A DNA stretch of 64,000 bases from Allgaiera indica (GTDB taxonomy: Bacteria > Pseudomonadota > Alphaproteobacteria > Rhodobacterales > Rhodobacteraceae), in contig NZ_FNOB01000001.1 of assembly GCF_900106675.1 (NCBI RefSeq), forward strand, positions 236,531 through 300,530, given 5' to 3'. Below the pieces are notes generated by a model, which saw nothing but the letters and a program-made list of their open reading frames with translations, did not search any database and had not been told where the DNA came from. How positions within the stretch are numbered: position 1 is the stretch's first letter; every line of letters starts with the position of its first letter. A program made the position numbers and the translations under genes. Positions 46,655 through 64,000 of this stretch are shown here, in pieces.

Positions 46655-46675
46655 GCTTGCGCGATAGAATGATGC

Positions 46676-46704: not shown

Positions 46705-46774
46705 TTACCGTTCCGGCCGCATCGGGGTTGACGGTTTTCCTTGCATCCGCGGCCCGCCGGCTACGAGTTTCCAG

Positions 46775-48367: not shown

Positions 48368-48379
48368 AGCGGGCGGGGT

Positions 48380-50479
48380 TCAGAATCCGAACAGATTGGC
48401 CTCGGTGATACTTTTGCGGACGAAGGCGGCGCGATCGGATTCGGGAACCCAGCCCAGCATGCGCTTGGCCTTGCTGTTGTCGAACGGCGACAGATGGGCA
48501 CGCGATTTCCAGTCCTTGAGCGATCCGCGAACGGCCCCTTTGCGGTTCAGTAGATGCCGCTTGAGCGCGTATTTGAGCCCGTCGAACAGGAAATAGCCGG
48601 TAAGGTTGCCCGACCGCACCAGGATCCGCGCCCCAAGCTGGGCATGGATCGCATCGAAATAATCCCGGCCGGTCAGCATCGGCTCTCCGATCAGGTTGAA
48701 GGTCTGGCCAAGAATTCCGTCCGCGTCCCGCATCGCCACCAGCGCATCCGAGACGTCATCGACCAGCACGAAGGGCAGGATATTGCGCCCGTCGCCCCAG
48801 ATCTTCACCGCCCCCGGACCGTTCCAGCGCCCGATGCCCCAGTGCTGCAAGGGCCCGCCCCGGCCCACCACGATCCCCGGCCGCGCGATGACCAGCGGCA
48901 GCCCCCGGTCGCGGTGCAGCGCCATCAGCCGAACCTCGCATTCGGCCTTGGACCGGGCGTAGAGGTTGCGATCCGCCATATCGGCAGCAAAGCCGGTGTC
49001 CTCGGTGATCGTGCGCGCCGGATCCGACATGTCGTATGAGGCAATGGTGCCGGTATAGATCAACCGCCCGACGCCCGCGTCCAGCGCGGCTTCGGCGACG
49101 GCCACGGCCACGCCGACATCGTTGCGCAGCGCGTCTTCCCAGGTCTTGTCGTCCGATTTCGCCAGGTTGTAGACGGTGTCGATCCCCGACATCGCGCGGC
49201 GCAAACCTTCCGGGTCGCGCGGCGACGCCGAGACCATCTCGACCCGGTGGGGGAGGTCGGCGAAGGGGCCGCCCTGCCCGCGGCTGAGCACGCGCACATC
49301 CTGCCCCTTTTCGACCAGCGCGCGCGTCAGGCCGCGGCCCAGGAAGCCGGTGCCGCCGATCACCAGGATGCGCGGCGCGGGCGTGCCCTTCGGAACGGCC
49401 GGTACGGACGCCGGCGCGGGCATCCGCTGCAATGTCGCATCGATCGCGCGCATGACCTCGGTGGCCGAGGCGATCGAGAAGCGCGGATCGACCGCCATGC
49501 CCCGCGCGATCGCGCCATAGATGCTGCGCAACATGCCCCGGAAGCTTAGCCCATAGGGGGATTTCTGGTTGAGCGAGACGAATTGCACGGCGGCGTTGCG
49601 CAGCCCGCCCGCCAGGCGCTGCCCGGCAAGGGACATCTCCCCGATCAGCGGATTGAGCACGATATCGGCGGCATTTTCCATCTGCAGCTGCAGCGTATCG
49701 CGCCCCATGTCGAGACGGGCCATGCCGCTTGATCCGCGCAGCGTGACAGAGCGGTCGTCGAAGCTTTCGACCAGCGAGATCGTGAAAGTGATCTCGACAT
49801 GGCCGGCCCGGGCGAGGATCCGCCAGCTTTGCGGGCGGGTGCCATCCCCGGGCAGGGCGATCGGCATTCCCAGTTCGAGATGCTGGATCTCGATCGGGCC
49901 GAACAGATCCTGCGCGAAAGCGTACAGATGCGGCCCGATTTCAAGCAACAGGTTCTGCGGCGCGCGCAGCAGCCACAGGCTGAACGGACCCGAGCGCAGC
50001 GGCGGCAGCGGAAAGCACCATTTGATCTCGGCCGCCGAGATCCTGCCAAGCCGCCCCGACGCTTGCACGGCCTTGAGCTTCTCGTAGGACGGCAGCGCAA
50101 GAAAATTGTGCCCCGCCGCCGCCACCTTGCCCGCGGCCTGGGCGGCTTCGGCGATCTGGGCGACTTCGGGTGCCGAAAGACCGACCGGTTTCTCGATCAG
50201 CACATGCAGCCCGGCACCCAGACATTCGATCGCCAGCGCAAGATGGGTCTGCGGCGGCGTCAGAATATGGACGACATCGCAAAGATCCGCGGCCAGCAGT
50301 TCCGCGACGGATCCGAACGCCCGCGCCCCGTAGCCGGCGGCAAGGTCTTCGGCCGCGCCGCGGTTGGTGTCACAGACCGCCGTCAGCCTGGTATCCGCGA
50401 CGTCGGCAAGCGTCGCCGCATGCCAGGACGAGATATATCCGGCCCCGATCAGGCCGACGCGCAGGGGAAGGTTGGGCAC
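48380..50479 (-). CDS. Gfo/Idh/MocA oxidoreductase fused to an NAD-dependent epimerase/dehydratase
   Basis: A 699-aa two-enzyme fusion. Residues 1-350 are a Gfo/Idh/MocA sugar oxidoreductase: Rossmann GLIGAGYISSWHA, the catalytic EKP at 96-98 and a C-terminal beta domain with GPHLYAFAQDLFGP. After a linker (MPAPASVPAVPKGTPAP), residues 370-699 are an extended SDR: GGTGFLG (375-381) and the YxxxK pair in NLYARSK (Y507, K511). The start is a GTG with AAGGAG about 9 nt upstream. It is last in an operon after a sulfotransferase and a GT2 enzyme. It probably makes or modifies a nucleotide sugar by sequential oxidation and epimerisation or reduction; the substrate is unknown. Confidence 0.9.
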   Translation of the reverse strand: MPNLPLRVGLIGAGYISSWHAATLADVADTRLTAVCDTNRGAAEDLAAGYGARAFGSVAELLAADLCDVVHILTPPQTHLALAIECLGAGLHVLIEKPVGLSAPEVAQIAEAAQAAGKVAAAGHNFLALPSYEKLKAVQASGRLGRISAAEIKWCFPLPPLRSGPFSLWLLRAPQNLLLEIGPHLYAFAQDLFGPIEIQHLELGMPIALPGDGTRPQSWRILARAGHVEITFTISLVESFDDRSVTLRGSSGMARLDMGRDTLQLQMENAADIVLNPLIGEMSLAGQRLAGGLRNAAVQFVSLNQKSPYGLSFRGMLRSIYGAIARGMAVDPRFSIASATEVMRAIDATLQRMPAPASVPAVPKGTPAPRILVIGGTGFLGRGLTRALVEKGQDVRVLSRGQGGPFADLPHRVEMVSASPRDPEGLRRAMSGIDTVYNLAKSDDKTWEDALRNDVGVAVAVAEAALDAGVGRLIYTGTIASYDMSDPARTITEDTGFAADMADRNLYARSKAECEVRLMALHRDRGLPLVIARPGIVVGRGGPLQHWGIGRWNGPGAVKIWGDGRNILPFVLVDDVSDALVAMRDADGILGQTFNLIGEPMLTGRDYFDAIHAQLGARILVRSGNLTGYFLFDGLKYALKRHLLNRKGAVRGSLKDWKSRAHLSPFDNSKAKRMLGWVPESDRAAFVRKSITEANLFGF

Positions 50480-50504: not shown

Positions 50505-51482
50505 CTATTTGTATTCGATGATCCGCATCTCGCGATCGCGCAGCGCCCGCCAGTAATAGGTAAGCATGCCCTGCAGGTTGGGAAATTTCGACAAGGTCAG
50601 GAAGGCCGCCTGCCGGGCCGCGTCGGAACGCCCCAGGCCCTCGCGCCGCAGGCCGCGGATGCTGCGCAGCCAGGACAGGGCATAAAGAGCCAGGCCAAGC
50701 GCCAGGCTCCAGCCGCCCAGGACGACGATGCCCAGAAGCATCGCAAGCGGCAATGCGGCGCCCCAGGCCAGCACCCGGGCACGCTCGCGCCGGAAGTGGC
50801 CGGGGTGAAGCGCGCCGACCTGCGCATAGCCATGCCCGGCGCGTACCGCGCGCCGCCACCACTGGGCGAAGCTGGTCATCGCCGCATCATGGCGCGTCAT
50901 CGGCAGGGGAAGGCGCAGCAGTCCCCAGCCCGCCTGCCCGACCCGCAGGCAGAAATCGTCGTCCTCGGCGGCGATGACGCGGGGGTTGAACCCGCCGACC
51001 TGTTCATAGGCGGCGGCGCGCACCATCATGTCGCCGCCGCAGGTCCTGATCGGCCCCGCCGGGCGATGCCATTCGGTATCGCAGATCGCGTTGTAGACGC
51101 TGGCTTCGGGAAATTGCTCGGACCGCCAGCCGGTGACCACGCCAAGGCTTTCGTCGCGTTCGAAAGCCCCCCTTGCCGCGGTGATCCAGCCGGGATGCAA
51201 TTCGCAATCGCCGTCAATGAACTGGATCATGTCCGGCAGCCCGTCCGCGCGCAGCCGCGCGACGCCCGCGTCGCGGGCCCGGGCCGCGGTAAAGGGAGTG
51301 GCAAGATCCAGCTCGACCACCTCTACCCCCGCCGCGCGCGCGGCCGCGACGCTGCCGTCGGTGGATCCGGAATCGACATAGACGACCCGGCGGATGCCCG
51401 CGACCGACGCCAGGCTTCGGATCAGGCGCTGGCCCTCGTTGCGGCCGATCAGGACGGCACCGATGCTGGGATTGCCGCTCAT
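50505..51482 (-). CDS. GT2-family glycosyltransferase
   Basis: A 325-aa GT-A glycosyltransferase. It begins with the typical IGAVLIGRNEGQRLIRSLAS and has VVYVDSGSTDGSVAAARAAG, the DxD-like IQFIDGDCELHPGW and the acceptor-side EDDDFCLRVGQAGW. One to two C-terminal hydrophobic segments (LPLAMLLGIVVLGGWSLALGL) anchor it to the membrane. It overlaps the sulfotransferase stop by 4 nt and precedes the oxidoreductase-epimerase fusion by 25 nt. Confidence 0.9.
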   Translation of the reverse strand: MSGNPSIGAVLIGRNEGQRLIRSLASVAGIRRVVYVDSGSTDGSVAAARAAGVEVVELDLATPFTAARARDAGVARLRADGLPDMIQFIDGDCELHPGWITAARGAFERDESLGVVTGWRSEQFPEASVYNAICDTEWHRPAGPIRTCGGDMMVRAAAYEQVGGFNPRVIAAEDDDFCLRVGQAGWGLLRLPLPMTRHDAAMTSFAQWWRRAVRAGHGYAQVGALHPGHFRRERARVLAWGAALPLAMLLGIVVLGGWSLALGLALYALSWLRSIRGLRREGLGRSDAARQAAFLTLSKFPNLQGMLTYYWRALRDREMRIIEYK

Positions 51483-52324
51483 GACGTCAGGAAGGGATAG
51501 GCCGCGCTCAGCGCGGGCGCACCGGGAAACAGCGCCACCAGGCGGGCGCGATCCTCGGCGAAGACCTGTTCCAGCGCGCGCTGCCGTTCGGGGGTCAGGA
51601 CGGGCCTGTCCTGCATCTGACGAGAGGCCCGGATCCTGGCGCGGATCGCCTTCGGCACCAGGGCGCGGCGCAGCGCGGTCGCCACCGGATTGTCGATCAG
51701 CAGCCCCTGCAGGGGAAGCCTTCGCACCCGCTCGGCCGAGACGTTGACCCGTGCCGTCTCTGCCCGCCAGACGACCGGCCCCGGGTGGCGCAGGAAGGCC
51801 CCCGTGCGATCCAGGACGCCCTGCGGATCGGCCTGCATTTCCTCCAGCGAAAGAAGCAGGATGTTTCCGGCCCCGAAAGCTTCGGCCCAGGGGGCGATCT
51901 GTTCGCCGTAGCGGCCATAGGCGATCAGCTCGGGGTGCCGGTCGATCGCGCGATCCAGATCGCCGGTGATCACGCCCTGGGTCCATTCGTGGACGTAATG
52001 CGAGACCGCACGCACCAGCGGATTGCGGATCACGTAGATCAGGCGGGGGCCGGACAGGACGGCGCGCAGGCGCGGCAGGGTTTCGGGATAGGTCGGAAGC
52101 TTGGTGTAATGCGTGCTGGCCTCGCCCTTCAGATCGCCGGGGGCGGCCGCGGCAAAGAGGCTTTCATACCAGTCCAGACCCTTGGCATAGATCGCGTCGT
52201 CAGAGAAGAAATTGGGCTCTTTCGGGTCGCACATGAAGATGCCCTGCTGGGCGGCGAGTTGGGTCTGAAGGGTCGAGGTGCCGCATTTCATCGCACCGAT
52301 GATCAGGAAATCGGGAAGGGTCAT
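51479..52324 (-). CDS. PAPS-dependent sulfotransferase
   Basis: A 281-aa sulfotransferase of the heparan-sulfate-type group. The 5'-phosphosulfate loop is GAMKCGTSTLQTQL near the N-terminus. The 3'-phosphate-binding segment is YVIRNPLVRAVSHYVHEW. KEPNFFSD is also characteristic, as the partner of the catalytic region in this subgroup. It is the first gene of a three-gene operon with a glycosyltransferase and a sugar oxidoreductase, which suggests it sulfates the polysaccharide repeat or its precursor. Confidence 0.9.
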   Translation of the reverse strand: MTLPDFLIIGAMKCGTSTLQTQLAAQQGIFMCDPKEPNFFSDDAIYAKGLDWYESLFAAAAPGDLKGEASTHYTKLPTYPETLPRLRAVLSGPRLIYVIRNPLVRAVSHYVHEWTQGVITGDLDRAIDRHPELIAYGRYGEQIAPWAEAFGAGNILLLSLEEMQADPQGVLDRTGAFLRHPGPVVWRAETARVNVSAERVRRLPLQGLLIDNPVATALRRALVPKAIRARIRASRQMQDRPVLTPERQRALEQVFAEDRARLVALFPGAPALSAAYPFLTS

Positions 52325-52685
52325 TCAATATCTCTCGTGGCGGCGCGCGCCCAACTGCTACCCCTATACGCCGTTTGCAGCATTTATTTAAGCCTGGATA
52401 GCGCTTACCCTCGGTTTTTCGATCTTTCGGCAGTGGCCCGAACGCCTTCCGAACATTGCTGGCCCAGACAAGGGTATCGCGCTCTTTCTTTTACCAAGCT
52501 CCGCGCGACAGTGGAAAAACCGGCAGGCCGGGTATATGATTACCCGATCTTCCATCACCGTCGCCGCGGGGCGGCACACAGATTTGCGATTCTCATGATC
52601 GGCACGTTCTTGGCACTGACATCGATACCCGCCCCCCACGCTTTGCACCTACCGCCACGGCGGGGTCAGGCATAAAGTTCCGGTG
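52325..52685. other. Divergent intergenic region in the polysaccharide locus
   Basis: About 360 nt between the divergent sulfotransferase and GT genes. It is AT-richer than surrounding coding DNA and should contain both promoters, but I could not place reliable boxes. TTGGCAC near 52610 resembles a sigma-54 -24 element, but no GC pair lies at the right distance. Confidence 0.45.
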
Positions 52686-53546
52686 ATGGACCTCGGGCAG
52701 TTCGCCAGGAAATTGCAGCTTCGGCCGCGCCTGCGCCAAGCGATCGCCCATTTGCGATGGCGCCTCCGGCATGTGGTGCCGCACCGTCCGCATGGGCGTG
52801 ACAGGACCCTGATCATCACGCTGACCTCTTATGCGGCGCGATTTCCCACGCTGCACCTGACCCTGCGCTGCCTTCTGACCCAATCGGTGCGCCCGGATCG
52901 CGTCATCCTGTGGCTTGGCCCCGACGATCTGCGCCAATTGCCCGGGTCGGTACGCGCGCTGGAAGCCGAGGGGCTGGAGATCCGCGAAACCGAGGACCTG
53001 CGCTCCTACACCAAGATCATCCCTGCGCTGAAGGAATTTCCCGAGGCGGTGCTGGTCACGGCGGATGACGATGTCCATTACGAACGCCACTGGCTGCGTG
53101 CCTTGCTAACCGCCTGGTCGGGCGAGACCGATCAGATCGTCTGCCACAGGGCGCATCGTTTCACCTTGCGCGAGGACGGCACCGTCGCGCCCTATGAAAG
53201 CTGGCCGCACGACATCCGCAATGAGCCCCGGCCTGATCTGATCTTCCCCACCGGGGTCGGAGGGGTGTTGTATCCGCCCGGCGCGCTTGCCCCCGAGGTC
53301 ACCGACGCGGCGCGCTTTCTCGAACTTGCGCCGCGCGCGGACGATCTGTGGCTTTACTGGATGGGGCGCAGGGCCGGCAGCCACTATCGGCTGGTCACGC
53401 ATCGACAGAAGCTGGTGGTGTGGCCGAATTCCCAGGCACGCAGCCTGTATGCGGGTAACGCGCAGGCCGGCAACGACATCCAGATCGCGCCGCTTGTCGC
53501 CTGCTATGGCCTGCCGGTGCCCGCAACGCGCGGCCCCCAAGACTAG
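52686..53546 (+). CDS. GT-A-fold glycosyltransferase-like protein
   Basis: A 286-aa putative glycosyltransferase. The core has LIITLTSYAARFPTLHLTLRCLLTQ, RPDRVILWLGPDDLRQLP and VLVTADDDVHYERHWL, whose DDD is a candidate metal-binding DxD. IFPTGVGGVLYPPGAL and DDLWLYWMG follow. This is the pattern of a small GT2-related group common in polysaccharide loci. An ATG at 52686 was chosen; a GTG lies one codon earlier. The SD is weak. Its sugar specificity is unknown. Confidence 0.82.
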   Translation: MDLGQFARKLQLRPRLRQAIAHLRWRLRHVVPHRPHGRDRTLIITLTSYAARFPTLHLTLRCLLTQSVRPDRVILWLGPDDLRQLPGSVRALEAEGLEIRETEDLRSYTKIIPALKEFPEAVLVTADDDVHYERHWLRALLTAWSGETDQIVCHRAHRFTLREDGTVAPYESWPHDIRNEPRPDLIFPTGVGGVLYPPGALAPEVTDAARFLELAPRADDLWLYWMGRRAGSHYRLVTHRQKLVVWPNSQARSLYAGNAQAGNDIQIAPLVACYGLPVPATRGPQD

Positions 53547-53573
53547 CCGCCTTCGCGCAGGCCACGCCCGCCG

Positions 53574-53804
53574 CTAGAGGCGGAAGCAGAACATATCCGC
53601 CATCTGCACCTGTGCAAGAAGCGCCGTCGCAGGCGGCGCGGTCGCGCTGGAAGGCGCCGGATCTACCCCCGGCGGCGGCACCTGAGGCGCCGCGGGCGCG
53701 GCCTCTGCGTCGGGCCGCACTCCCAACAGGTAGAAAAGACCCCGGGAAGTGCCGTAGATCTCGGCCGGGATCGGGGACGAGCGCGGAGGGATCATGTCGC
53801 TCAT
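53574..53804 (-). CDS. Small hypothetical Pro/Ala-rich protein
   Basis: A 76-aa protein, MSDMIPPRSSPIPAEIYG at the start, then TSRGLFYLLGVRPD, an Ala/Pro-rich linker and a hydrophobic tail (ATALLAQVQMADMFCFRL). GAGGACCC lies before the ATG at 53804. It has no recognisable domain or signal peptide. It is convergent with the GT-like gene and 184 nt downstream of the Pr6Pr gene on the same strand. It may be a genuine small gene, given ordinary codon use in the first half, but the evidence is modest. Confidence 0.5.
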   Translation of the reverse strand: MSDMIPPRSSPIPAEIYGTSRGLFYLLGVRPDAEAAPAAPQVPPPGVDPAPSSATAPPATALLAQVQMADMFCFRL

Positions 53805-53988
53805 GCTGGCGGGTCCTCGCGGAAATCTCCGTGACATTGGTGACAGATGATTAACCAGTATCAAGGCGATTCTTCGAAGAGAATGAGGCACGCATCGGAT
53901 GCGCGGGTCATCGCCGCCCGAACCGCGGCACCGGCAAAGGCGGCGCCAGGCCCCGCGCCAGGGCACGGCCTGCCGCGCCGCGGCCGGA

Positions 53989-54609
53989 TCAGACGGGGCG
54001 GTCGGGGCCAAGACGCCGGGCCAGCGCCACCAGTGCCAGACCGCCCAGCGCGAAGGCCACGATCAGCCCCGCAACGTTGAGCGCGACCATCGCGGGCCCC
54101 AGCCGTGCGACATCGAGAAACGGATAGGGGTAGAACCCGCTGAACGCGCCGCGGGTCAACGCATAGGCACAATAGACAAGCGGCCAGATCAGCCACAGGG
54201 TCGCGTGCCGGGGCCGCAGTCCGCGCTTGTCGGCCAGCCACAGCCACCACAGCAGAACCAGCACCGGAACTGCCGTATGCAACCCCTGGTCGGCCCACCA
54301 GGCCAGGCCCTTCGGCTGCCAAAGCGCCGCCAGCACCGCATGATAGACCGCACCCACCACAAGGATCCAAAGCGTCAGGCCGCCGCTCCAGCCGGCCCCG
54401 ATGCGCCGGTCGTCCACGGCCGCCAGCGCGAAGGTGATCAAGACCAGCAGATTGGTCAGTATCGTGAAATAGCCCGCCATCCGCCACAGGACGGCGCCGG
54501 ATCCGGGCGATCCCATCAGATCGCTCGAAACCAGGAATTGCGCCACCAGGGCGGCCAGCGCGAGAACGGCAATCACTGCAGGAAGGAACCTGTGCATGGC
54601 GTATGACAT
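53989..54609 (-). CDS. Pr6Pr-family integral membrane protein
   Basis: A 206-aa protein with six predicted membrane helices, matching the Pr6Pr (FAR-17a/AIG1-like) family. Marker segments include GYFTILTNLLVLITFALAA, LHTAVPVLVLLWWLWLAD and PLVYCAYALTRGAFSGFYPYPFLDV. The family's role is unknown in bacteria; eukaryotic relatives hydrolyse fatty-acid esters of hydroxy fatty acids. The ATG at 54609 is followed by another at 54597. It is not obviously part of polysaccharide synthesis. Confidence 0.85.
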   Translation of the reverse strand: MSYAMHRFLPAVIAVLALAALVAQFLVSSDLMGSPGSGAVLWRMAGYFTILTNLLVLITFALAAVDDRRIGAGWSGGLTLWILVVGAVYHAVLAALWQPKGLAWWADQGLHTAVPVLVLLWWLWLADKRGLRPRHATLWLIWPLVYCAYALTRGAFSGFYPYPFLDVARLGPAMVALNVAGLIVAFALGGLALVALARRLGPDRPV

Positions 54610-54739
54610 CCTTTCTTCTGGTCAGCCGCAACATACGGCCGCGATCTTCCTGGCGGACGCGCCTTGCGGGCATCTGGGCGGCTTGTGCGTGATCACGGCC
54701 CGTGGCGCTGTCCCGGTGGCTGGCGGCAGCACACAGGGA

Positions 54740-55525
54740 TCACCGCTTGCCACGCTGGCGAAGCGCCCGGATCGCAAGTCCCGGAAGGATCAACCCGCAA
54801 TCGCGGTAACGTGCCGCAAGCCGCTTCCAGTCGGTCAGCATCCGCCACAGCCATTCCATCGCGATCCGGCGCACCCAGCGCGGCGCGCGCCGCTGCGTGC
54901 CGGCGATGAAATCGAGCCCAGCCCCGATCGAGACGAAGCCCAGCCGCGCGTGACGTGCATGGCCACGCGCTGCCAGTATCTCTTGCTTGGGCGCCCCAAG
55001 CGCCAGAAGGCAAAGCTGGGCACCCGCGGCGGCGATCTCGTCGATCATGCGGTCGGCCTCGGGGCCGGTGGGGTCGAAGCCGAAGGGGGGCGCGATCCGC
55101 GCGACGACCTCCAGCCCGGGGTGCCGGGCACGCAGGCTTTCCGCCGCCCGGGCCAGCACGGTGTCGGTCGCGCCAAGGAAGGCCACCTTGACGCCGTCCC
55201 GCGCCGCCATCGCCATCAGCGGGTCGATCAGGTCCGAGCCGGTCACCAGTTCGACCGGCCTTCCGGCCAGCCGCTGAAGCCAGACGATCGGGTTGCCATC
55301 GGCGACCACATGGGTCTGGGCGGCATAAGTGGCGCGAAAGGCGGGATCGCGGCGCAGCTTCACCAGATGGTCAAGGTTCACGGTGGCCACTGCAAACCCG
55401 CGGCCCGAGGCGCATCGCGCGCGAAGGTCGGACAGAAGCGCGACCCGCGTCGGCGTCGTGACCTCGGTCGCCCCAAGGACCCCCCGGTTCGCGCCTGGAA
55501 TGTTGTCGCCTACCCCGCCGTTCAA
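54740..55525 (-). CDS. WecG/TagA/CpsF-family glycosyltransferase
   Basis: A GT26 enzyme of about 261 aa, typically adding the second sugar (for example ManNAc or ManNAcA) to an undecaprenyl-PP-linked primer. Conserved blocks are VATVNLDHLVKLRRDPAFRA, VVADGNPIVWLQRLAG, VELVTGSDLIDPLM, VKVAFLGATDTVLARAAE and LLALGAPKQEI (the A-x-G-APKQE motif). The N-terminus is uncertain: no ATG or GTG precedes the domain within 70 codons, and a TTG at 55525 is the best candidate. It implies that this locus builds a lipid-linked repeat unit. Confidence 0.85.
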   Translation of the reverse strand: MNGGVGDNIPGANRGVLGATEVTTPTRVALLSDLRARCASGRGFAVATVNLDHLVKLRRDPAFRATYAAQTHVVADGNPIVWLQRLAGRPVELVTGSDLIDPLMAMAARDGVKVAFLGATDTVLARAAESLRARHPGLEVVARIAPPFGFDPTGPEADRMIDEIAAAGAQLCLLALGAPKQEILAARGHARHARLGFVSIGAGLDFIAGTQRRAPRWVRRIAMEWLWRMLTDWKRLAARYRDCGLILPGLAIRALRQRGKR

Positions 55526-55736
55526 CCTGACCTGTCCCGATGCCGCGCATGACCATTTCGGTGATGGCCCATGGGCGGGATTTTGTCCATCTTGCCCGCG
55601 ACGGCCCCGGGGCGCAGCCCTGACTGCGTCGCATGGGCACAACACTTGCGGCTTCTTTGTCCTTCGCTTCAAGCGGCCGTTGCGGTCGGCCCGACTTTTC
55701 GGACAGCGTGAAAGAGCATTCTTTTCGGATATCCTT

Positions 55737-56633
55737 ATGGCTTTGCATTTCTCGATAGTCATTCCGACCTACCGCCGTCCCGGCGATCTGTCCGCCCTGC
55801 TGGCGCTGCTGGCGCCGCAGGTCGCCGCCTTCGGGGCCGATTGCGAGGTGATCGTCGTCGACAATTGCCCCGACGCCTCGTCGCGCGCGACGGTCGCGGC
55901 CGCGCCGATGCCCGCCACCTACCGGCACGAGCCGCGCGCCGGCGTGGCCCATGCACGCAACACGGGCGTCGCCTCTGCCCGCGGGCGGCATGTGATCTTC
56001 ATCGATGACGACCAGCGCCCCGTGCCGGACTGGCTGACCAGCCTGGCCCAACTGGCCGACGCCGGCCATGCCGCCGTCTTCGGCCCGGTACGTCCGACCT
56101 TCGAAACCCCGCCCCCGGTTCATCTGCGCACCGCCCTGGAGCCGCTGTTCACCCGCGAGATGGGGGTGGCCACCGGCACCGACATCTCGGACCGGCGCGC
56201 CTATCTGGGGACCGGAAATTCGATGTTCGAACGGGCGCGCTGCTTTACCCGCAGGACACCGTTCGATCCGCGCTTCAATCGCGGTGGCGAAGACGTCTGG
56301 TTCCTGCGCGGCCTGGTGCAGGACACGGGCGTGCGGTTGACCTGGTGCGAAGAGGCCGCGGTGGACGAAACAGTTCCCGCAGCACGCATGACCGCGGCCT
56401 ATGTGCGGGCGCGCCGCTTCCGCAACGGCCAGCTGCGCTGCATCGTCGAGGCGGGCGGCGGCAACCGCGCGGCGGTGCTGTTCTGGATGGCGGCGGGCGG
56501 GGCGCAGGCGCTGGGCTATGGCCTTGGCGCGGCGGCCGTATTACCGTTCGACCGTCGGGCCTTCGACGGGCTGCGCGCCCGCGCGGCCGGCGGGCTTGGG
56601 AAACTGATGTGGTGGTGGCCGGCCGGTGGCTAG
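55737..56633 (+). CDS. GT2-family glycosyltransferase
   Basis: A 298-aa GT-A glycosyltransferase starting MALHFSIVIPTYRRPGDL. It carries CEVIVVDNCPDASSRATVAA, the GVAHARNTGVASARGRHVIFID segment with the metal-binding FIDDDQRPVPDWL, and a GEDVWFLRGL acceptor motif. The last third is hydrophobic (AVLFWMAAGGAQALGYGLGAAAV) and may anchor it. It is followed within 20 nt by a GT4 gene and then a sulfotransferase-like gene, forming a plus-strand operon. Confidence 0.9.
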   Translation: MALHFSIVIPTYRRPGDLSALLALLAPQVAAFGADCEVIVVDNCPDASSRATVAAAPMPATYRHEPRAGVAHARNTGVASARGRHVIFIDDDQRPVPDWLTSLAQLADAGHAAVFGPVRPTFETPPPVHLRTALEPLFTREMGVATGTDISDRRAYLGTGNSMFERARCFTRRTPFDPRFNRGGEDVWFLRGLVQDTGVRLTWCEEAAVDETVPAARMTAAYVRARRFRNGQLRCIVEAGGGNRAAVLFWMAAGGAQALGYGLGAAAVLPFDRRAFDGLRARAAGGLGKLMWWWPAGG

Positions 56634-56652
56634 CAATCGGGGGAATACAGAC

Positions 56653-57903
56653 GTGAGCCAGTTCTCCGCGACCGGGCCGATCGCCTATATGACCGGCAGT
56701 TATCCGATGATCTCGCATACCTTCATCCTGCGCGAGATCCAGGCGCTGCGCCGGCTGGGCCTGACGGTGCATCCCTGTGCCGCGCGCCGCCCCGATGCGG
56801 CCGATTTCACCGGCCCGGACGAGATCGCGGCCCTGGACGAGACCTTCTATGTGCTGGCCGCGGCGAAGAACCCCCTGCGTCTGGCCACGGCCCATGGCAC
56901 AGCGCTGGCGCGCGCGCCGGGGCGCTGGTTCCGGGCGCTGAAGCTGGCGCTGCGCACGCGCCCACCCGGGGCCCGGGCGCTGGCCTGGCAGATCTTCTAT
57001 TTCCTCGAGGCGGCGGTGCTGGTGCAGCATCTGCGCGCCCGTGGCGTGCATCACATCCACAACCATTTCGGCAATTCCAGCTGCTCCCTGACGATGATCG
57101 CCAGCGAGATGTCGGGCATTCCCTACAGCTTCACCCTGCATGGCCCCGCGATCTTCTTCGAGGCCCATTGGTGGCGCCTGGACGAAAAGATCGCGCGGGC
57201 GCGTTTCGTCGCCTGCATCAGCCATTTCGCCCGCAGCCAGGCGATGCTGTTCTCGGATCAGAGGCATTGGGACAGGCTGAAGATCATCCATTGCGGGGTG
57301 ATCCCGGCCAATTACCGCAAGGAAAAGGCCGACGCACCCGGGCCGCGGGTGCTGTTCGTCGGGCGGCTGGCGGCGGTGAAGGGCGCGCCGCTTCTGCTGC
57401 GGGCCTTCGCCGCGCTGGCCGAGCGCCACCCGGCGGCGCGGCTGGCGATCGTCGGCGACGGGCCCGACCGTGCCGCGCTGGAGGCCGAGGCGCGCGCGCT
57501 GGGCCTGTCCGGGCGGGTCGATTTCCTTGGCTACCAGCCGCAGGGCGCGGTCGCACAGGAATTGGCGCGTTCCGACATGCTGGTGCTGCCCAGCTTTGCC
57601 GAAGGCGTGCCCGTCGTGCTGATGGAGGCCATGGCCGCGTCCCTTCCGGTGATCGCCAGCCGGGTCGCCGGCGTGCCGGAACTTGTCGAGGACGGGGTGT
57701 CGGGCTTCGTCACCCCGCCGGGCGATCTGGAAACGCTGACGGACCGCCTGGGCCGCCTTCTGGGCGACGCCGAACTGCGCGCCCGGATGGGTGCGGCGGG
57801 ACGCGCCAAGGTGGTGGCCGAGTTCGACGTCGAGACCGAAGCGGCCAAGCTGGCCCGCGCCTTCGCCGGGGACGGGGACGGGGACGGGGACGGGAAAGGA
57901 TAG
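56653..57903 (+). CDS. GT4-family glycosyltransferase
   Basis: A 416-aa GT-B glycosyltransferase. HIHNHFGNSSCSLTMIAS and YSFTLHGPAIFF are in the acceptor domain. VLFVGRLAAVKGAPLLLRAFA, LAIVGDGPDRAALEAEARALG, DFLGYQPQGAVAQELARSDM and PSFAEGVPVVLMEAMAASLPVIAS form the donor domain. The start is a GTG at 56653 with GGGGGA upstream. The C-terminus ends in a (Gly-Asp)n tail encoded by four GGGGAC hexamers (57868-57894), which may vary in length by slippage. It is 3 nt from the next gene. Confidence 0.9.
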   Translation: MSQFSATGPIAYMTGSYPMISHTFILREIQALRRLGLTVHPCAARRPDAADFTGPDEIAALDETFYVLAAAKNPLRLATAHGTALARAPGRWFRALKLALRTRPPGARALAWQIFYFLEAAVLVQHLRARGVHHIHNHFGNSSCSLTMIASEMSGIPYSFTLHGPAIFFEAHWWRLDEKIARARFVACISHFARSQAMLFSDQRHWDRLKIIHCGVIPANYRKEKADAPGPRVLFVGRLAAVKGAPLLLRAFAALAERHPAARLAIVGDGPDRAALEAEARALGLSGRVDFLGYQPQGAVAQELARSDMLVLPSFAEGVPVVLMEAMAASLPVIASRVAGVPELVEDGVSGFVTPPGDLETLTDRLGRLLGDAELRARMGAAGRAKVVAEFDVETEAAKLARAFAGDGDGDGDGKG

Positions 57904-57906
57904 TCG

Positions 57907-58722
57907 ATGCGCAATCATATCGTTCTGACCCTTGGCCGCAGCGGCAGCAACACGCTGTGCGACATGCTCAACCAAAGCCCCGAGGTGCTGAATTACGGCG
58001 AGGTGCTGGGCCACTGGACGAAAATGCGCAAGCTCAAGAACAGGGCGCCCTTCCTGTGGCGTTCGGACGAGGCGTTCGTGCAATGGATCCTGACCTCACG
58101 CCTGCTGCGCAACCTCGCCAATGCCGAGCGCAACCTGCGCAAGCGCCGCGAGGGCAAGCAGGACGAGATCAAGCGGCTTGCCCAGGTCCGGACGATCGGG
58201 GTGAAGGAATTCTCGCTCAACTTCCAGCGCTACGGCATATCGGAACGCGTCCTGCACCGACCGGGAATGAAGGTGATCGCGCTGGTGCGGCGCAATGTGG
58301 TGGACCGGATGGTTTCGAACGCGCGGCTCGGGGCGACCGGGGTGGTCAAGGTCGGCGGCGACGACGACGATCGCGGCAGCGGCGGCCTGACCATCGATCC
58401 GGCCAGGATCGCGGACCTTCTGCGCGCGATCGAGACCGAGAACGCCAGCCTCGAACAGATCATCGCGCGTCTGCCCGAGGACGCGAAATATGTCATCCAG
58501 TATGATGACCTCTACCGCGACGAGGATACCCGCGCGGCGATCATGCACGACGCCTTCGCCTTCCTGGGGGTCGCGCCGATCAGGCCCCGCACCCGGATGC
58601 GCAAGATCATCACCCAACCGATCACCGAGGTCATCGAGAATTTCGACGCCTGCCTCGATGCCGTGCGCGGTACGCATCATGAGGCCTTGCTGCGCGCGGC
58701 GGCGGAACGCGCCACGGGCTGA
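57907..58722 (+). CDS. Sulfotransferase-family protein
   Basis: A 271-aa protein resembling Stf0/LPS-type sulfotransferases. The N-terminal VLTLGRSGSNTLCDMLNQSP is the phosphosulfate loop (GRSGSNT), and VIALVRRNVVDRMVSNARLG matches the 3'-phosphate segment with Arg and Ser. YVIQYDDLYRDEDTRAA and FAFLGVAPIRPRTRM are typical of the C-terminal half. It sits 3 nt after a GT4 gene, suggesting that it sulfates the product of that operon. Distant family, so substrate and even activity remain inferred. Confidence 0.82.
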   Translation: MRNHIVLTLGRSGSNTLCDMLNQSPEVLNYGEVLGHWTKMRKLKNRAPFLWRSDEAFVQWILTSRLLRNLANAERNLRKRREGKQDEIKRLAQVRTIGVKEFSLNFQRYGISERVLHRPGMKVIALVRRNVVDRMVSNARLGATGVVKVGGDDDDRGSGGLTIDPARIADLLRAIETENASLEQIIARLPEDAKYVIQYDDLYRDEDTRAAIMHDAFAFLGVAPIRPRTRMRKIITQPITEVIENFDACLDAVRGTHHEALLRAAAERATG

Positions 58723-58731
58723 ATCGCGCGG

Positions 58732-59667
58732 CTAGTCGGCGTCGACCGCGGCTTCGGGCCGAAGCTGCGGGAGTCGCGCAGAGATTTCCGCCTCCAGCGC
58801 GTCGAGAAACTCGAAGCGGCGGCGGTACATCGGGCGCTTCTTGGGTTTCACCGTTTCCAGATCGCGACGTTCGGGCGAGACCGGCAATTCGAAGAAACAC
58901 TTGCCCAGGCGGGTGCCGCCGCGGTCTTCCCAGACCGCATCGTAATCCTGGTGGGTGTCGGATTTCTTGCCCTTGAAATAGGGGTGATGGTGGTGGCGGC
59001 AGGCATCCGCCACGGCCTCGATCCGGGTGACGCCCATCTCGCGGCAAAGCATGCGGAACACCTCGATCAGCAGATCGCGCGGGCGCAGGCCGTGCATCTC
59101 CTTGGTCAGGTCGCGGTAGATGTCCAGAACGCCCTCGCGGTTGCGGCCCTGGAGGCCGCCGATCACCGCGATCAGTTCGTCCCCTTCGCGGATCAGCGAA
59201 AAGGCAAGGCAGAAGGCGCGGAAATTGCCCAAGAACAGATTGAGGACCAGTCCCCCCTCGCGCAGGAACCAGTGCGGCTGGTCGAGGACTAGCGCGGCGC
59301 CAAGCTCTGGCGGTCCGACGCGCGCGAGGGTCAGTCGTTCGTGGACCGAGAAGGCGTAGGGCGGGCCGAGGCGGTCGATTTCCTGGTAATGGGCGGCGAT
59401 CCGGCGCAGGCGTTCGCGCGCGTCCCAGCCGGCGCAGAGATAGGGCCAGACCAGCGCCCCCAGCATCTCGGGGCGTTCCCGAACGAGACGCTGCATCTCG
59501 CTGCCTGCGGGCGCGTTGACGATACGCCCCACCCGGCAGCGGTGACGCAGGCCGATGGCGAAGCCGCGCAGCCGCAGCTTCCACGCCGTGCGCGAGCCGC
59601 CCGGGAAGATCTCGGCCAACAGCCGCCACAGCACGCGCGGCGCCACGGAAGGGGGGCTGTGGTTCAT
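58732..59667 (-). CDS. VirK/YbjX (DUF535)-family protein
   Basis: A 311-aa cytosolic protein of the DUF535 family. Key segments are YAFSVHERLTLARVGPPELG, GNFRAFCLAFSLIREGDELIAVIGGLQGRN and EAVADACRHHHHPYFKGKKSDTHQDYDAVWEDRGG. VirK/YbjX members are linked to resistance to antimicrobial peptides or cell-envelope traits in enterobacteria, but no activity is established. The ATG overlaps the upstream GT2 stop by 4 nt, so it is co-translated with that glycosyltransferase and likely serves the envelope glycan locus. Confidence 0.85.
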   Translation of the reverse strand: MNHSPPSVAPRVLWRLLAEIFPGGSRTAWKLRLRGFAIGLRHRCRVGRIVNAPAGSEMQRLVRERPEMLGALVWPYLCAGWDARERLRRIAAHYQEIDRLGPPYAFSVHERLTLARVGPPELGAALVLDQPHWFLREGGLVLNLFLGNFRAFCLAFSLIREGDELIAVIGGLQGRNREGVLDIYRDLTKEMHGLRPRDLLIEVFRMLCREMGVTRIEAVADACRHHHHPYFKGKKSDTHQDYDAVWEDRGGTRLGKCFFELPVSPERRDLETVKPKKRPMYRRRFEFLDALEAEISARLPQLRPEAAVDAD

Positions 59668-60632
59668 CTTGCCGCGCGGCTGTCGCCGGAATGGCGGAAG
59701 GCATTGATCCAGATATCGCGCGCCTCGCGTGCATTGGGGGCGGGCACGGCCTTTCCCGCCACGCGACGCACCTGCGCAAGAGCCCGGCCCAGATGCCACA
59801 TCAGATTGGCGGCCCAAAGCCCGGCCCGACCATGGGCCTGGCGCAGAAACCGGGCGCGCGAGGCATAGTAATAGCCCGGCAGGCGCTTGCGCTCGCGTGC
59901 CAGGGTCTTGACCGGCGCGCTGCCGCCGCGGAAGTGCACGGCGCGGGCCTGGGGGATATAGGCGATGCGCCATCCGGCGCGGCGCGCGCGCAGGCAATAT
60001 TCGGTATCCTCGAAATAAAGGAAATAGCCCTCGTCCATCGGTCCTATTGCCGCGACCATCTCCTTGCGCAGCAGGATGCAGGCGAAGCTGGCCCACTCGA
60101 TCTGATCGGGCGCCGGCGGCATGGCCAGCGGCACCGCGAAACGTCCAAGCACCCGCGTGACCACGCCCGTGCTCGCCCCCCGGATCAACTCGCTTGCCGG
60201 CGAGGGGAAGCGAAAACAGCTGACCTGCCGGGTACCGTCGTCGTCTTCGAGCCGCGGAGCCAGAAGACCGGCGCGGGGATGGGCCTTTGCGGCGTCGAGC
60301 AGGGCCGCGAAGAACCCTGGACGAATCAGCGCGTCGGAATTGAGGATCAGGTAGAAATCGGCCGGCGCCGCGGCCATTCCCTGGTTGTGCCCTCCCGAAA
60401 ACCCCGAATTCGTCGGCGACCGCACCAGCGTAACCGGAACCTCGGGCCCCTGCTGGGCAATCCAAGCCTCGATCTGTTCGGCCGATCCGTCATTCGAGAG
60501 GTTGTCGACAACCACCACGCGGGCGGGGATATCGCCAAGATCGGCAAGCACCGAGCCCACGCAGGCCAGCGTCATGTCACCGGTCCGGTAATTGATGATC
60601 GAGACCGTCAGGGTCAGGTCCGAAGAACGCAT
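59664..60632 (-). CDS. GT2-family glycosyltransferase (rhamnosyltransferase-like)
   Basis: A 322-aa GT-A enzyme starting MRSSDLTLTVSIINYRTGDM. It has VVVVDNLSNDGSAEQIEAW, NSGFSGGHNQGMAAAPADFY, the DxD-like LILNSDALIRPGF and FEDTEYCLRARRAGW, a pattern close to the WbbL-like rhamnosyltransferase group. WASFACILLRKEMVAAIGPMDEG is also typical. It precedes and overlaps the DUF535 gene and is divergent from the Wzy-like gene. Donor sugar not determined. Confidence 0.9.
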   Translation of the reverse strand: MRSSDLTLTVSIINYRTGDMTLACVGSVLADLGDIPARVVVVDNLSNDGSAEQIEAWIAQQGPEVPVTLVRSPTNSGFSGGHNQGMAAAPADFYLILNSDALIRPGFFAALLDAAKAHPRAGLLAPRLEDDDGTRQVSCFRFPSPASELIRGASTGVVTRVLGRFAVPLAMPPAPDQIEWASFACILLRKEMVAAIGPMDEGYFLYFEDTEYCLRARRAGWRIAYIPQARAVHFRGGSAPVKTLARERKRLPGYYYASRARFLRQAHGRAGLWAANLMWHLGRALAQVRRVAGKAVPAPNAREARDIWINAFRHSGDSRAAR

Positions 60633-60810
60633 TTTACAAATCGGCCGTCCCGCCGCGGCAAGAAGGAATGAATAGGGTTTCTATAGGGCAGATGCGTCGT
60701 TTTTGTAAGCCCCTTGAAAGCTTGGGCGAAACTGCGCGGTGGGCAAGCGCGGCCGCGCCTGCTAGAAAAACGGCAGCGAAGCTGTACGCAAACAGGCAGG
60801 CGCGTTTTTC

Positions 60811-62346
60811 ATGCCGAATACATTTTCCTATGTCGCGCTCTTCCTATGGCCGGTCGTCGTGTTCTTTCTGTACCGTTCGCTGCCGCGCGACCGGGCGTTG
60901 ATCGCGTCGATTCTGGGGGGCTATCTGCTCCTGCCCTTCGGGGTGGGCATCAACCTGCCGGTGCTGCCCACCTATGACAAGACGCTGGTTCCGGTGCTGT
61001 CGGCGCTGATCATGGCCATGCTCGTCCCGGCCCCGCCAGAGCGCGCGACGGCGCGGGGTTCCGCGACGGTCGCGGATCGTGCCGGCAGAACCCCGTTCAC
61101 ACGCCAGCGCGAGACCCTGGCGCGGCGACAGACGCATCTGCAAACGCAGAAGGCCGGACCCGGTGAAACGACCGGTTCGGGGGGCAACCGAATCAGCAAC
61201 ATGTTTCTGGTGCTGCTGTTCGTGACCCCGTTCGTGTCGGTCCTGACCAATTCCCAGCCCGTGGACATCGGGCCGCGGGTCCTGCCCGGCCTGAGGCTCT
61301 ATGATGCATTTTCCTTCGCGCTGACCTCGCTGATCTCGGTCCTGCCTTTCTTGATGGCGCGCCGCTATCTGGCGACCCAACGTGCGCATAAATACCTGCT
61401 GATCGGACTGGTGCTTTGGGGGTTGTTCTACACGCTGCCCGCCCTCTACGAGATCCGGATGAGCCCGCAGCTCGCGCGGCGCATCTACGGGTTTCTCGCG
61501 CAGCAATTCGTCCAGGCGATGCGCGACGGCGGCTTCCGTCCCGTGGTCTTCCTGCAGCACGGCCTGTGGCTGGCGATTTATTTCGCCATGGCGATCCTTG
61601 CCGCCGCCGCCCTGTGGAGGACCTGCCGCGCCGAGGGCGACCGGAAGGCGCCGCGCTGGCTGTTCGCGCTGGTCTGGCTGCTGGGCACGCTGATCCTGGC
61701 GAAATCGCTCGGCGCGCTGGCCGTGGCGCTGGTGTTGCTGCCTGTCGCGCTGCTGTTCTCGCCGCGCGCGCAGGTGGTGGCCACGGCGATCATCGCCGCC
61801 GTGATCCTGACATATCCCGCGTTGCGCCACGCCGATCTTATCCCGGTCAACCGATTCGTCGCCGCGGCGGAATCCTATTCGCCCGAGCGTGCGCGATCGC
61901 TGGAATTTCGGCTGGTCAACGAGGACCGGCTGCTTGCCCATGCGCGCCAGAAACCCCTTGCGGGCTGGGGCGGCTGGGGCCGCGGGCGCGTCTATAGCGA
62001 ACACGGGCGCGACATTTCCGTCACCGATGGCATGTGGATCATCGTCATGAGCGATTCCGGCTGGTTGGGATATATCGCCAACTTCGGCTTGCTGACGATC
62101 CCGATCTTCCTGATCGCCCTAAGGCGCAGGGGGTCGGGGCTTCCACCGGCGACCGTGGGCCTTTCGGTGGTGCTGACGGCCAATCTGATCGACATGATCC
62201 CGAACGCGACGCTGACCCCGGTCACCTGGATGATCGCGGGCGCCTTGACCGGCTGGCTAGCGCGTCGGGAGGCAGCCAAAGCGCCGCCGGAAGGCCCGCC
62301 TGCGCGCCGTGCCCCTCCGCGGCCCCCGACAAGGGCTACTGCCTGA
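60811..62346 (+). CDS. Wzy/O-antigen-ligase-like polysaccharide polymerase
   Basis: A 511-aa polytopic membrane protein with about ten hydrophobic helices. It carries the Wzy_C-like motif around ARSLEFRLVNEDRLLAHARQ followed by PLAGWGGWGRGRVY, in a periplasmic loop. The end SGWLGYIANFGLLTIPIFLI matches oligosaccharide polymerases. A basic, low-complexity insertion at about residues 73-125 (PPERATARGSATVADRAG to TGSGGN) interrupts the first helices. The C-terminus is Pro/Arg-rich and overlaps the convergent GT2 gene by 11 nt. Likely joins lipid-linked repeat units. Confidence 0.85.
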   Translation: MPNTFSYVALFLWPVVVFFLYRSLPRDRALIASILGGYLLLPFGVGINLPVLPTYDKTLVPVLSALIMAMLVPAPPERATARGSATVADRAGRTPFTRQRETLARRQTHLQTQKAGPGETTGSGGNRISNMFLVLLFVTPFVSVLTNSQPVDIGPRVLPGLRLYDAFSFALTSLISVLPFLMARRYLATQRAHKYLLIGLVLWGLFYTLPALYEIRMSPQLARRIYGFLAQQFVQAMRDGGFRPVVFLQHGLWLAIYFAMAILAAAALWRTCRAEGDRKAPRWLFALVWLLGTLILAKSLGALAVALVLLPVALLFSPRAQVVATAIIAAVILTYPALRHADLIPVNRFVAAAESYSPERARSLEFRLVNEDRLLAHARQKPLAGWGGWGRGRVYSEHGRDISVTDGMWIIVMSDSGWLGYIANFGLLTIPIFLIALRRRGSGLPPATVGLSVVLTANLIDMIPNATLTPVTWMIAGALTGWLARREAAKAPPEGPPARRAPPRPPTRATA

Positions 62347-63403
62347 TCTTGAACTTGCCCTGATTCGCCTGCACCGACCCGACCGAGAGACTGCGGATCT
62401 CGGCATTCGCGTAATGGGCGGTCACATAGTCAAACAGCACCGCCAGCGGCATCACGAGCCATTTCAGCCCGGCCTTGAACCCGGCGTTGCGCACGGCGTG
62501 AAAGCGCCGGAAGACATAGCTGCGCGGCACGAAGGACCGGGTTTCCCTTGCGCGCGCCGCGATCAATTGCCGGACCCAATCTGGATCGGCCCGGTTGCGG
62601 CGTGCGATTTCGGCCATGCGCAGGTCGTACCCCGCGGGCATCTTTTCCATTTCCTGGTAAATCAGGCGGTTGAGCGCGGTGCCGATCGCCTGCCGCTTCT
62701 GGAAACGATACATCCGGGCAAGGCTGACATAGGCGGGATGCAGGTGATATCCGCCCGGGACATTGACGATCCGCCCCGGCGGGCCGGGAAGCCGCGTCAG
62801 CGCATCCGTCGCCACCATCGCCCCCAGATAGCCATCTTGGGACAACAGGCCCACCGGCAGCACGATCTTGCGGAAATGCGGCGCGCGGGCACAGTAGAAC
62901 TGCCCGCACATGCCCTTGGTCGCCCCGGGCGGGCGCTGGAAGACGCGGTTGAGCAGCCGCATCGGATTCAGCCGCGCGGCCCCGGTGTAATCATTGACCG
63001 ACACGTCGCTGGCGATGATCGCTTCGGCATGGGCCGCAAGCGCTGCGATGCCGCCCGCGATCAGATCGGCCTGCGGCAATCTGATATCCCCGTCGAGCAA
63101 GCAGACCACATCGACGCCATCGGGAAGCAGGTCATGCATGAACACGTTCCAGGCGTTGGTCTTGCTGGCGATCTCCAGTTCGACCGGGTGGAAGCGCACG
63201 AAATCGGGGAACTTCAGCCGCGCCACCCACTCGCGGCTTCGTTCCAGGGTGGAATCGGTGCAGCCGTTCGCCACCACGAAAAGGTCGATCCGATCGGCCG
63301 GGCCATGAGCGTCGAAAACGGTCTGACGGCGCAAATCCTGAAATAATTTCGGGACATGGGTTGCTTCATTATGCGTCAGGAGCGCAATTGCCAAATGCGT
63401 CAT
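62336..63403 (-). CDS. GT2-family glycosyltransferase
   Basis: A 355-aa GT-A glycosyltransferase. Motifs are LAIALLTHNEATHVPKLFQDL, LFVVANGCTDSTLERSREW, VVCLLDGDIRLPQADLIAGG (metal-binding DGD), KGMCGQFYCARAP and LLSQDGYLGAMVATDAL. The C-terminal part (FKAGLKWLVMPLAVLFDYVTAHYA) is membrane-associated. It is convergent with the Wzy-like gene. Its sugar specificity is unknown. Confidence 0.9.
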   Translation of the reverse strand: MTHLAIALLTHNEATHVPKLFQDLRRQTVFDAHGPADRIDLFVVANGCTDSTLERSREWVARLKFPDFVRFHPVELEIASKTNAWNVFMHDLLPDGVDVVCLLDGDIRLPQADLIAGGIAALAAHAEAIIASDVSVNDYTGAARLNPMRLLNRVFQRPPGATKGMCGQFYCARAPHFRKIVLPVGLLSQDGYLGAMVATDALTRLPGPPGRIVNVPGGYHLHPAYVSLARMYRFQKRQAIGTALNRLIYQEMEKMPAGYDLRMAEIARRNRADPDWVRQLIAARARETRSFVPRSYVFRRFHAVRNAGFKAGLKWLVMPLAVLFDYVTAHYANAEIRSLSVGSVQANQGKFKIRQ

Positions 63404-63650
63404 GAAAATCCTCTGCGCGAATGCTCCTGCGCCATCATGAGCGAAAGCCGCACTTCAACACAAGCGCGGGAATCGAGCGCGCGCCGGACCATCGACCGCA
63501 GCCGATCCGCCAACGCACCCGCTACCTCAGCCGAGTTGAGCCGCATCCTCGGGAATGCTATGGAATGACCAGAGGCGAAATTCAGGCGCCGGATGAACAA
63601 GATACTCAAGGCCCCGCACGGTGCCGGTGAAAGTGATTCGACGGCGACAT

Positions 63651-64000
63651 ATGATTGACTTCGCGCTCTGGAAAAAGGCCTGGGAACTGCTGGACCGGCG
63701 CGAGCGCCGCAATGCGTGGATCGTGTTGATCGTCGTCGTGGTCTCGGCCTTTTCGTCGGCGCTGATGGTCGGCTCGGTCATGCCGTTCCTTTCGGTCCTG
63801 TCGGACCCCGGCCGCATCCATCAGAACGCGGTCTTCGCCTGGGCCTACAGAACCGGTGGCTTCACCTCGGACTATGCCTTCCTGATCGGGCTGGGGGTCG
63901 GGTCGCTGGCGATCATCCTGCTATCGAACCTGTTGCAGATATTCCGGACGCTTGTCGTCGCGCGCTACACGACGATGCGGATGCATACCTTCAGCCACCG
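63651..64000 (+). CDS. ABC transporter transmembrane protein, N-terminal fragment (PglK-like flippase)
   Basis: The first 116 codons of a gene cut by the window end. The protein starts MIDFALWKKAWELLDRRERR, followed by two strong membrane segments (WIVLIVVVVSAFSSALMVGS and YAFLIGLGVGSLAIILLSN). LLQIFRTLVVARYTTMRMHTFS is typical of the coupling-helix entry in type IV ABC exporters. The opening closely resembles PglK/HlyB-type lipid-linked-oligosaccharide flippases, a good fit with the surrounding locus. The ATPase domain would lie beyond the window. The SD is weak. Confidence 0.8.
   Translation, partial: MIDFALWKKAWELLDRRERRNAWIVLIVVVVSAFSSALMVGSVMPFLSVLSDPGRIHQNAVFAWAYRTGGFTSDYAFLIGLGVGSLAIILLSNLLQIFRTLVVARYTTMRMHTFSH

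Follow-up and report, generated by a model that had tools for sequence, protein, structure and literature searches.

The 64,000-nucleotide stretch of Allgaiera indica DNA analysed here (G000:C48:236531-300530, in a genome of 4.28 Mb and 77 contigs; hereafter the window) includes the left-hand portion of an exopolysaccharide locus in a Rhodobacteraceae genome. The gene content of this locus makes a hybrid route probable, in which a PglK/Wzk-type ABC transporter would flip a lipid-linked, sulfated repeat unit at the expense of ATP, a Wzy-family protein would polymerise it and an OPX protein would export the polymer. In the usual scheme, Wzy is paired with a Wzx flippase, and ABC transporters are kept for finished chains.

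We infer every biochemical step of this route from sequence, as follows. A short priming transferase would load the first sugar phosphate onto the lipid carrier, and WecG-type, GT2 and GT4 enzymes would assemble the repeat unit. Two sulfotransferases, ST1 and ST2, would sulfate the unit from 3'-phosphoadenosine-5'-phosphosulfate (PAPS), ST1 acting on or beside the residue added by one of the GT2 enzymes (GT2_C); since PAPS is cytoplasmic and neither sulfotransferase contains a hydrophobic segment, this step is placed in the cytoplasm. A dimer of the PglK-like transporter would take the place of Wzx and flip the lipid-linked unit with ATP, the Wzy-family protein would polymerise it together with a Wzz-type co-polymerase, and a short OPX protein would export the polymer with the help of a neighbouring outer-membrane protein. 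The exosortase XrtD and VPLPA-CTERM proteins encoded in the locus may be part of the same surface system.

A PglK-like ABC transporter in a locus free of Wzx

The transporter gene begins at 63651 on the plus strand and extends past the window (63651..64000) to window position 65465. Its product is a 604-residue half-transporter with Walker A, signature and Walker B motifs. When the transmembrane half was searched against the PDB, it matched PglK (two sequences, E 1.7e-14), the lipid A flippase (E 1.6e-4) and nothing else at E 0.001; for the whole protein, the best half-transporter was again PglK (258 bits, with the lipid A flippase at 204 bits). Four arginines of the PglK cavity, R86, R260, R302 and R309, are said to meet the substrate pyrophosphate (PMC5395944), and across 51 rows of the ABC family (two row pairs identical) Arg or Lys occupies the R302 position in 51, R260 in 46, R309 in 10 and R86 in none.

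Several properties of the transporter weigh against the proposed hybrid route. Compared whole with the PDB, the protein is matched first by P-glycoprotein-type full transporters. On the NCBIfam PglK equivalog model it reaches 313.5 bits, below the cut-off of 1000 and only modestly above its scores on the MsbA (286.6 bits) and HepA (279.9 bits) models. In a pairwise alignment, it has Lys at R302 and R309, with Gln at R260 and Ser at R86.

Two other identities were considered for this protein. That of a lipid A exporter (MsbA) was rejected because the MsbA model gives higher scores (485–291 bits against 286.5) at five other genomic places. A type I secretion role, serving the neighbouring RTX protein, is disfavoured: window positions 90672–95685, beyond the window, hold a separate ABC-HlyD-OEP set, and type I models score lower than PglK on the window transporter.

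The first-pass annotation had proposed that a PglK-like exporter stands in for Wzx, and a search for a conventional wzx nearby found no Wzx-family gene in the locus. Genome-wide, PF01943 genes occur in two places only, on contigs C35 and C22, and PF13440 matches on C35 and, weakly, on C48 at 101325, ~180 kb off the locus. Contig C35 holds a second polysaccharide locus of the genome (L084, G000:C35:33001-53000), with a priming transferase, a Wzx and a called protein of 3213 residues.

Replacement of Wzx by a PglK-type protein is already published as a laboratory result: an Escherichia coli wzx mutant regained its O16 antigen when given Helicobacter pylori Wzk (PMC2841628). Wzk and Campylobacter PglK are ATP-driven half-transporters that flip undecaprenyl-linked glycans, as the window half-transporter is predicted to do; however, H. 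pylori has no Wzy or Wzz that could be found, and PglK acts in protein N-glycosylation (PMC2841628, PMC5395944), whereas the window transporter shares its locus with a Wzy, a Wzz-type protein and an OPX. A limited search of the open-access literature found no Wzy pathway in nature that relies on a PglK-type flippase. Heterocyst HepA may be a natural case of Wzy with an ABC transporter; one paper looked through for it (PMC4594306) mentions none of HepA, Wzk, PglK and MsbA.

Recurrence and exchange of flippases at related loci

Related loci were fetched with the Wzy protein and not with the transporter, which left the flippase kind free to vary. Of at least 521 related stretches, the best 80 were compared, nearly all of them Rhodobacteraceae-type by label (the exceptions being L229, L242, L261, L275, L296 and L305). 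Within 10 kb of wzy, a PglK-like ABC gene was present in 27 of these loci and a Wzx gene in 17, with both in none and neither in 36. A PglK-like exporter beside Wzy had been called an unusual mix; its presence stands, but the word needs softening, because 27 of the 80 related loci share it. The zero overlap between the two flippases has a chance of 3e-4 if labels are independent and relatedness is ignored. From these comparisons and the sulfotransferase data below, we lean towards a recurrent, inherited route in Rhodobacteraceae that would combine ATP-driven PglK/Wzk-type flipping with Wzy, with flippases swapped and sulfation set by a mobile GT2_C–ST1 cassette.

ABC matches at the 80 loci scored 360–1323 bits. 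Below these came pieces of one broken call in L250 at 162 bits, which were counted as ABC, and another ABC kind at 132 bits; the ABC genes of L249 (445 residues) and L251 (421 residues) are partial calls. Wzx was typed with a home-made profile extended with the Pfam-recognised proteins of L276, L282 and L295, and a 198-residue fragment at the edge of L266 was counted as Wzx by hand. A screen of the ABC loci for a hidden Wzx, covering other proteins of 350–700 residues with at least four hydrophobic segments, returned four, among them L249 12565–13944; of the three run against Pfam, one was UbiA/HAD, one had a phosphopantetheine domain and one had no match (L233 15361–16899).

On a tree of the Wzy proteins (45 rows: 28 ABC including the window, 17 Wzx), the flippase label needs five changes, at least three of them forced by well-supported branches, and a 33-row group (support 97/96) takes in all 28 ABC rows along with five Wzx rows. 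Flippases have changed between loci that share Wzy and other genes, and such loci amount to a natural swap experiment on substrate choice by flippases and on whether a flippase has to match its Wzy. Viewed from the transporter side, ABC genes at E 1e-100 or better are present in 27 of 295 family genomes; around 29 such places in 26 genomes (G184 left out), Wzy_C lies within 10 kb at 11 (accepted with E up to 0.001; 6 of these fall below the Pfam cut-off), PF13469 at 8 and PF01943 at none.

These comparisons also hold points on the other side of the balance. The 36 loci with neither flippase in reach are one; many of them are short contigs, and a Wzx can sit further out (~19 kb in G007). Some of the 36 may hold an overlooked Wzx, because the first Wzx profile missed three that Pfam recognised. 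Another is the tree of the ABC proteins, on which the ABC genes of Wzy loci are mixed with those of other loci and do not form one clade, so the transporter itself has undergone several exchanges or recruitments. A single origin of the transporter at Wzy loci was rejected, with at least six changes on this tree (long-branch warnings apply to the outgroup).

A further point against the hybrid route is that the locus might in principle draw on a wzx located on another contig. The pathway would then be a conventional Wzx/Wzy pathway with its wzx on C35 or C22, where the PF01943 genes lie, and the ABC transporter would export something else; a parallel is Enterobacter cloacae O13, in which wzy alone has been annotated and a wzx at another place is proposed (PMC7198725). 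We consider this unlikely. The C35 Wzx gene sits ~0.5 kb from a priming transferase of its own, and the two flippases are mutually exclusive at the 80 Wzy loci. Moreover, the ABC and Wzy pair occurs without any PF01943 match in G050, G003, G233 and G241; G050 (rated 99% complete) also has no PF13440 match, and the other three have one partial PF13440 match each, taken as MurJ.

The Wzy family was also seen in records labelled Thioalkalivibrio, Gammaproteobacteria and Frankia (L261, L275 and L305), reflecting either transfer or mislabelled assemblies.

Two sulfotransferases and a partner glycosyltransferase

Both sulfotransferases of the first-pass annotation were recovered, each with glycosyltransferase neighbours. 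ST1 (51479..52324, minus strand; PF00685 58.8 bits, cut-off 22) overlaps the gene of a GT2 glycosyltransferase, GT2_A (50505..51482, minus; PF00535 45.7 bits), and resembles bacterial and heparan sulfate sulfotransferases, with PDB 3rnl among the matches. ST2 (57907..58722, plus) ends a three-gene run on the plus strand, after GT2_B (55737..56633; PF00535 73 bits) and an EpsE-like GT4 glycosyltransferase (56653..57903; PF00534 151 bits; NF041876 235 bits, below the cut-off of 400). That ST2 stays under both Pfam cut-offs (PF13469 25.7 bits against 27, PF00685 16.9 against 22) counts against its assigned role; when its AlphaFold model (four sequences; predicted local distance difference test, pLDDT, 74.9) was searched with Foldseek, the first 19 rows were sulfotransferases, with E from 4e-6 and low TM-scores (~0.4). 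Conserved loops in the sulfotransferases are what we take to be the PAPS-binding ones. A bifunctional ATP sulfurylase–adenosine 5'-phosphosulfate (APS) kinase gene lies on contig C30, which is permissive only, because APS kinase also matches in 11 of 14 control genomes. As far as the genes indicate, the glycan would be sulfated.

ST1 follows one kind of glycosyltransferase. Homologues of GT2_C (59664..60632, minus; PF00535 58 bits) at the 80 Wzy loci fall into two kinds, with 59–86% and 29–39% identity to the window protein, and ST1 (at least 50% identity) accompanies the first kind, to which the window protein belongs, in 15 of 16 loci, the second in 0 of 35, and is found in 0 of the 29 loci without GT2_C; these cut-offs were chosen after the gap in identities was seen. 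Mapped on the Wzy tree, GT2_C switches kind 9 times and ST1 changes 10 times; in 6–7 of 7 independent pairs the two switch jointly (median p 0.016). ST1 adjoins GT2_C in 14 of its 15 loci, so joint transfer through linkage alone is possible; in the window and in a same-genus locus (L227), ST1 and GT2_C lie eight genes apart and both are kept. ST1 occurs with either flippase (6 loci with ABC, 4 with Wzx, 5 not determined), and no relation between flippase kind and ST1 was seen on the Wzy tree, where such pairs are too few. Together, ST1 and GT2_C make a concrete candidate for placing sulfate on a chosen sugar of a bacterial polysaccharide.

An acceptor cannot be read from a sulfotransferase sequence, and PF13469 is widespread in the family, with genes in 36 of 38 genomes searched, which would suit sulfotransferases acting on a lipid, a protein or a small molecule instead of the polysaccharide. 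The tie of ST1 to a single GT2_C kind, and its position beside it, argue otherwise, as does the sulfated polymer made by a Wzx/Wzy cluster with two sulfotransferases in Synechocystis (PMC8205485), and we judge such other acceptors distinctly unlikely.

That cluster, synechan xss of Synechocystis sp. PCC 6803, likewise combines two sulfotransferases of different subfamilies with glycosyltransferases, a Wzy and a co-polymerase. It differs in having a Wzx flippase, an OPX gene elsewhere and no exosortase mentioned in the main text, and in that sulfate and mutants were shown (PMC8205485). Its authors knew of no other bacterial polysaccharide cluster with two sulfotransferase genes (PMC8205485); the window locus appears to be another. 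For the sulfated capsule of Vibrio sp. KMM 8419, sulfotransferases and PAPS genes likewise occur with polysaccharide genes, and the sulfated polymer was isolated; unlike in the window locus, ABC-transporter export of a finished chain is proposed there (PMC11641403).

In many related Rhodobacteraceae loci, a polyketide synthase (PKS, ~2140 residues) and a protein resembling nonribosomal peptide synthetases (NRPS, ~1530 residues) flank GT2_C beside Wzy (for example L304:11752-18180, L231:3696-8285 and L230:15210-19781); both are absent from the window. The NRPS-like protein has formyltransferase, adenylation, luciferase-like monooxygenase and carrier domains, the PKS and NRPS domains having been read in three examples. 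Polysaccharide and PKS/NRPS genes seem to form one cluster in such relatives.

Extent and gene content of the locus

Genes were called on the window and the following 38.5 kb of the contig, and those of the locus were annotated with Pfam and NCBIfam. The first-pass annotation had confined the locus to 50505–64000; the content holds but the extent does not, the locus starting at ~44.3 kb (44339) and running at least to window position 90201, beyond the window, where XrtD lies. Along 50505–64000, small runs of genes alternate in strand, as had been noted. The accompanying idea of a mosaic assembled by exchange is supported by the flippase kind and the ST1 cassette, both of which change repeatedly on the Wzy tree. 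Base composition shows nothing of the sort (GC 0.60–0.71 in 1-kb steps over 40–64 kb), and a recent foreign island was rejected, this region carrying no sign of one.

Extending the sequence, as had been suggested, yielded a priming transferase, a Wzz-type co-polymerase and an outer-membrane export protein past the window. From the ABC gene (63651–65465), the contig continues with a GT25 glycosyltransferase, an RTX protein, a rhomboid protein, an outer-membrane protein, a 204-residue OPX and a PrsT-like TPR protein, followed by the priming transferase, an XrtA-type ATPase, the Wzz-type co-polymerase, a tyrosine-kinase homologue, a VPLPA-CTERM protein, an MBOAT acyltransferase (PF03062 85 bits), a large RTX protein and XrtD (TIGR04152 633 bits, above the curated cut-off of 400). 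The priming transferase (L003:13106-13684, a 227-residue frame) matches PF02397 with 188 bits (cut-off 27), the Wzz-type protein PF02706 with 26.6 bits (cut-off 25.5) and the OPX protein PF02563 with 60.8 bits (cut-off 28). No ABC-2 permease, as looked for in a Wzm/Wzt pathway, was matched in Pfam runs of the locus genes.

Short OPX proteins (≤280 residues) are described as coupled to a beta-barrel (PMC9601211). As in the Myxococcus EpsY/EpsX export pair (PMC9601211), the 204-residue OPX here adjoins a predicted outer-membrane protein, and the two genes stay adjacent in several related loci; compared with EpsY/EpsX, the identity of the barrel depends on a below-cut-off match (Porin_4, 21.2 bits against 27). 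The rhomboid protein (L003:6295-6957; rhombosortase 35 bits, below the cut-off of 84), encoded between the RTX gene and the outer-membrane export genes, recurs adjoining XrtD in relatives.

A rough count gives the Wzy-family protein (60811..62346, plus; PF04932 34.7 bits, cut-off 31.7) 11 hydrophobic segments. PF04932, whose name is O-antigen ligase, takes in polymerases as well as ligases, a further point against the hybrid route. Were the protein a ligase, the ABC transporter could flip a finished oligosaccharide destined for lipid or for VPLPA-CTERM proteins, in the way that PglK serves protein glycosylation, and the locus does contain XrtD and two VPLPA-CTERM proteins (TIGR03370 34.1 and 32.7 bits, cut-off 25.35). 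We find this very doubtful: the same contig stretch encodes an OPX exporter and a Wzz-type co-polymerase, both components of polymer export, and their presence is why a polymerase is favoured over a ligase. In addition, G233, G327 and G119 carry the ABC and Wzy pair yet are not among the XrtD genomes, so the pair need not accompany XrtD.

XrtD is present in 69 of 295 family genomes, 14 of which are among the 27 ABC genomes (the two sets of 295 being taken as identical). At 26 XrtD places, partly chosen for ABC genomes, a Wzx lies within 15 kb in 14 and the ABC within 30 kb in 4, including the window, with both in one (G158); among the XrtD loci examined, Wzx was thus a partner more often than the ABC. 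Published PEP-CTERM/exosortase exopolysaccharide loci likewise bring together an exosortase, sorting-signal proteins and exopolysaccharide genes (PMC1569441). The window locus is of the XrtD/VPLPA kind; models of the XrtA system do match its kinase, Wzz-type, ATPase and PrsT homologues (E 1e-24 or better), but none of these matches reaches the cut-off. In the main text of that report, the term sulfotransferase does not appear (PMC1569441), and a limited open-access literature search found no description of sulfotransferases in exosortase loci.

The gene set is largely kept in a second genome of the genus, G002. Between 44339 and the small gene that follows the second VPLPA-CTERM gene, 29 genes were called, and 28 of them recur in G002 in the same order with 75–91% identity; the exception is GT2_B, not found there by the gene caller. 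G001, of the same genus, had no match to the window Wzy.

Among the remaining genes of 50505–64000, a WecG/TagA/CpsF glycosyltransferase (54740..~55462, minus, the start estimated from homologue lengths; PF03808 159 bits) had, like the Wzy-like protein and the ABC transporter, been predicted beforehand. A GT2-like glycosyltransferase, GT2_D (62336..63403, minus), matches PF00535 with 16.4 bits, below the cut-off. A 287-residue protein (52683..53546, plus) is without a Pfam or NCBIfam match and has an 83% counterpart in G002, and a Pr6Pr-family membrane protein is encoded at 53989..54576 (minus; NF038065 113 bits). The DUF535 protein (58732..59646, minus; PF04393 203 bits) may be an acyltransferase, a weak fold hint: its model (pLDDT 76, five sequences) retrieved mostly GNAT-type acetyltransferases in the PDB, the best at E 2.9e-3 and none at 0.001.

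The left end of the locus, 44339–50479, keeps its gene order in G002 with 80–90% identity. It comprises a GT4 glycosyltransferase (44339..45598, minus; PF00534 85 bits; 84% counterpart in G002), the first VPLPA-CTERM protein (45968..46654, plus; the 34.1-bit match), a likely XrtD target, a 503-residue protein (46856..48367, plus) and a fused Gfo/Idh oxidoreductase and NAD-dependent epimerase (48380..50479, minus; PF01408 89 bits, PF01370 105 bits), predicted to modify sugar nucleotides and with ~60% homologues at other Wzy loci. The 503-residue protein, without a match in Pfam, NCBIfam or the PDB, recurs with 45–49% identity adjoining exosortase or Wzy loci of other genera; homologues were found in G002, G308, G201, G136 and five named Wzy loci.

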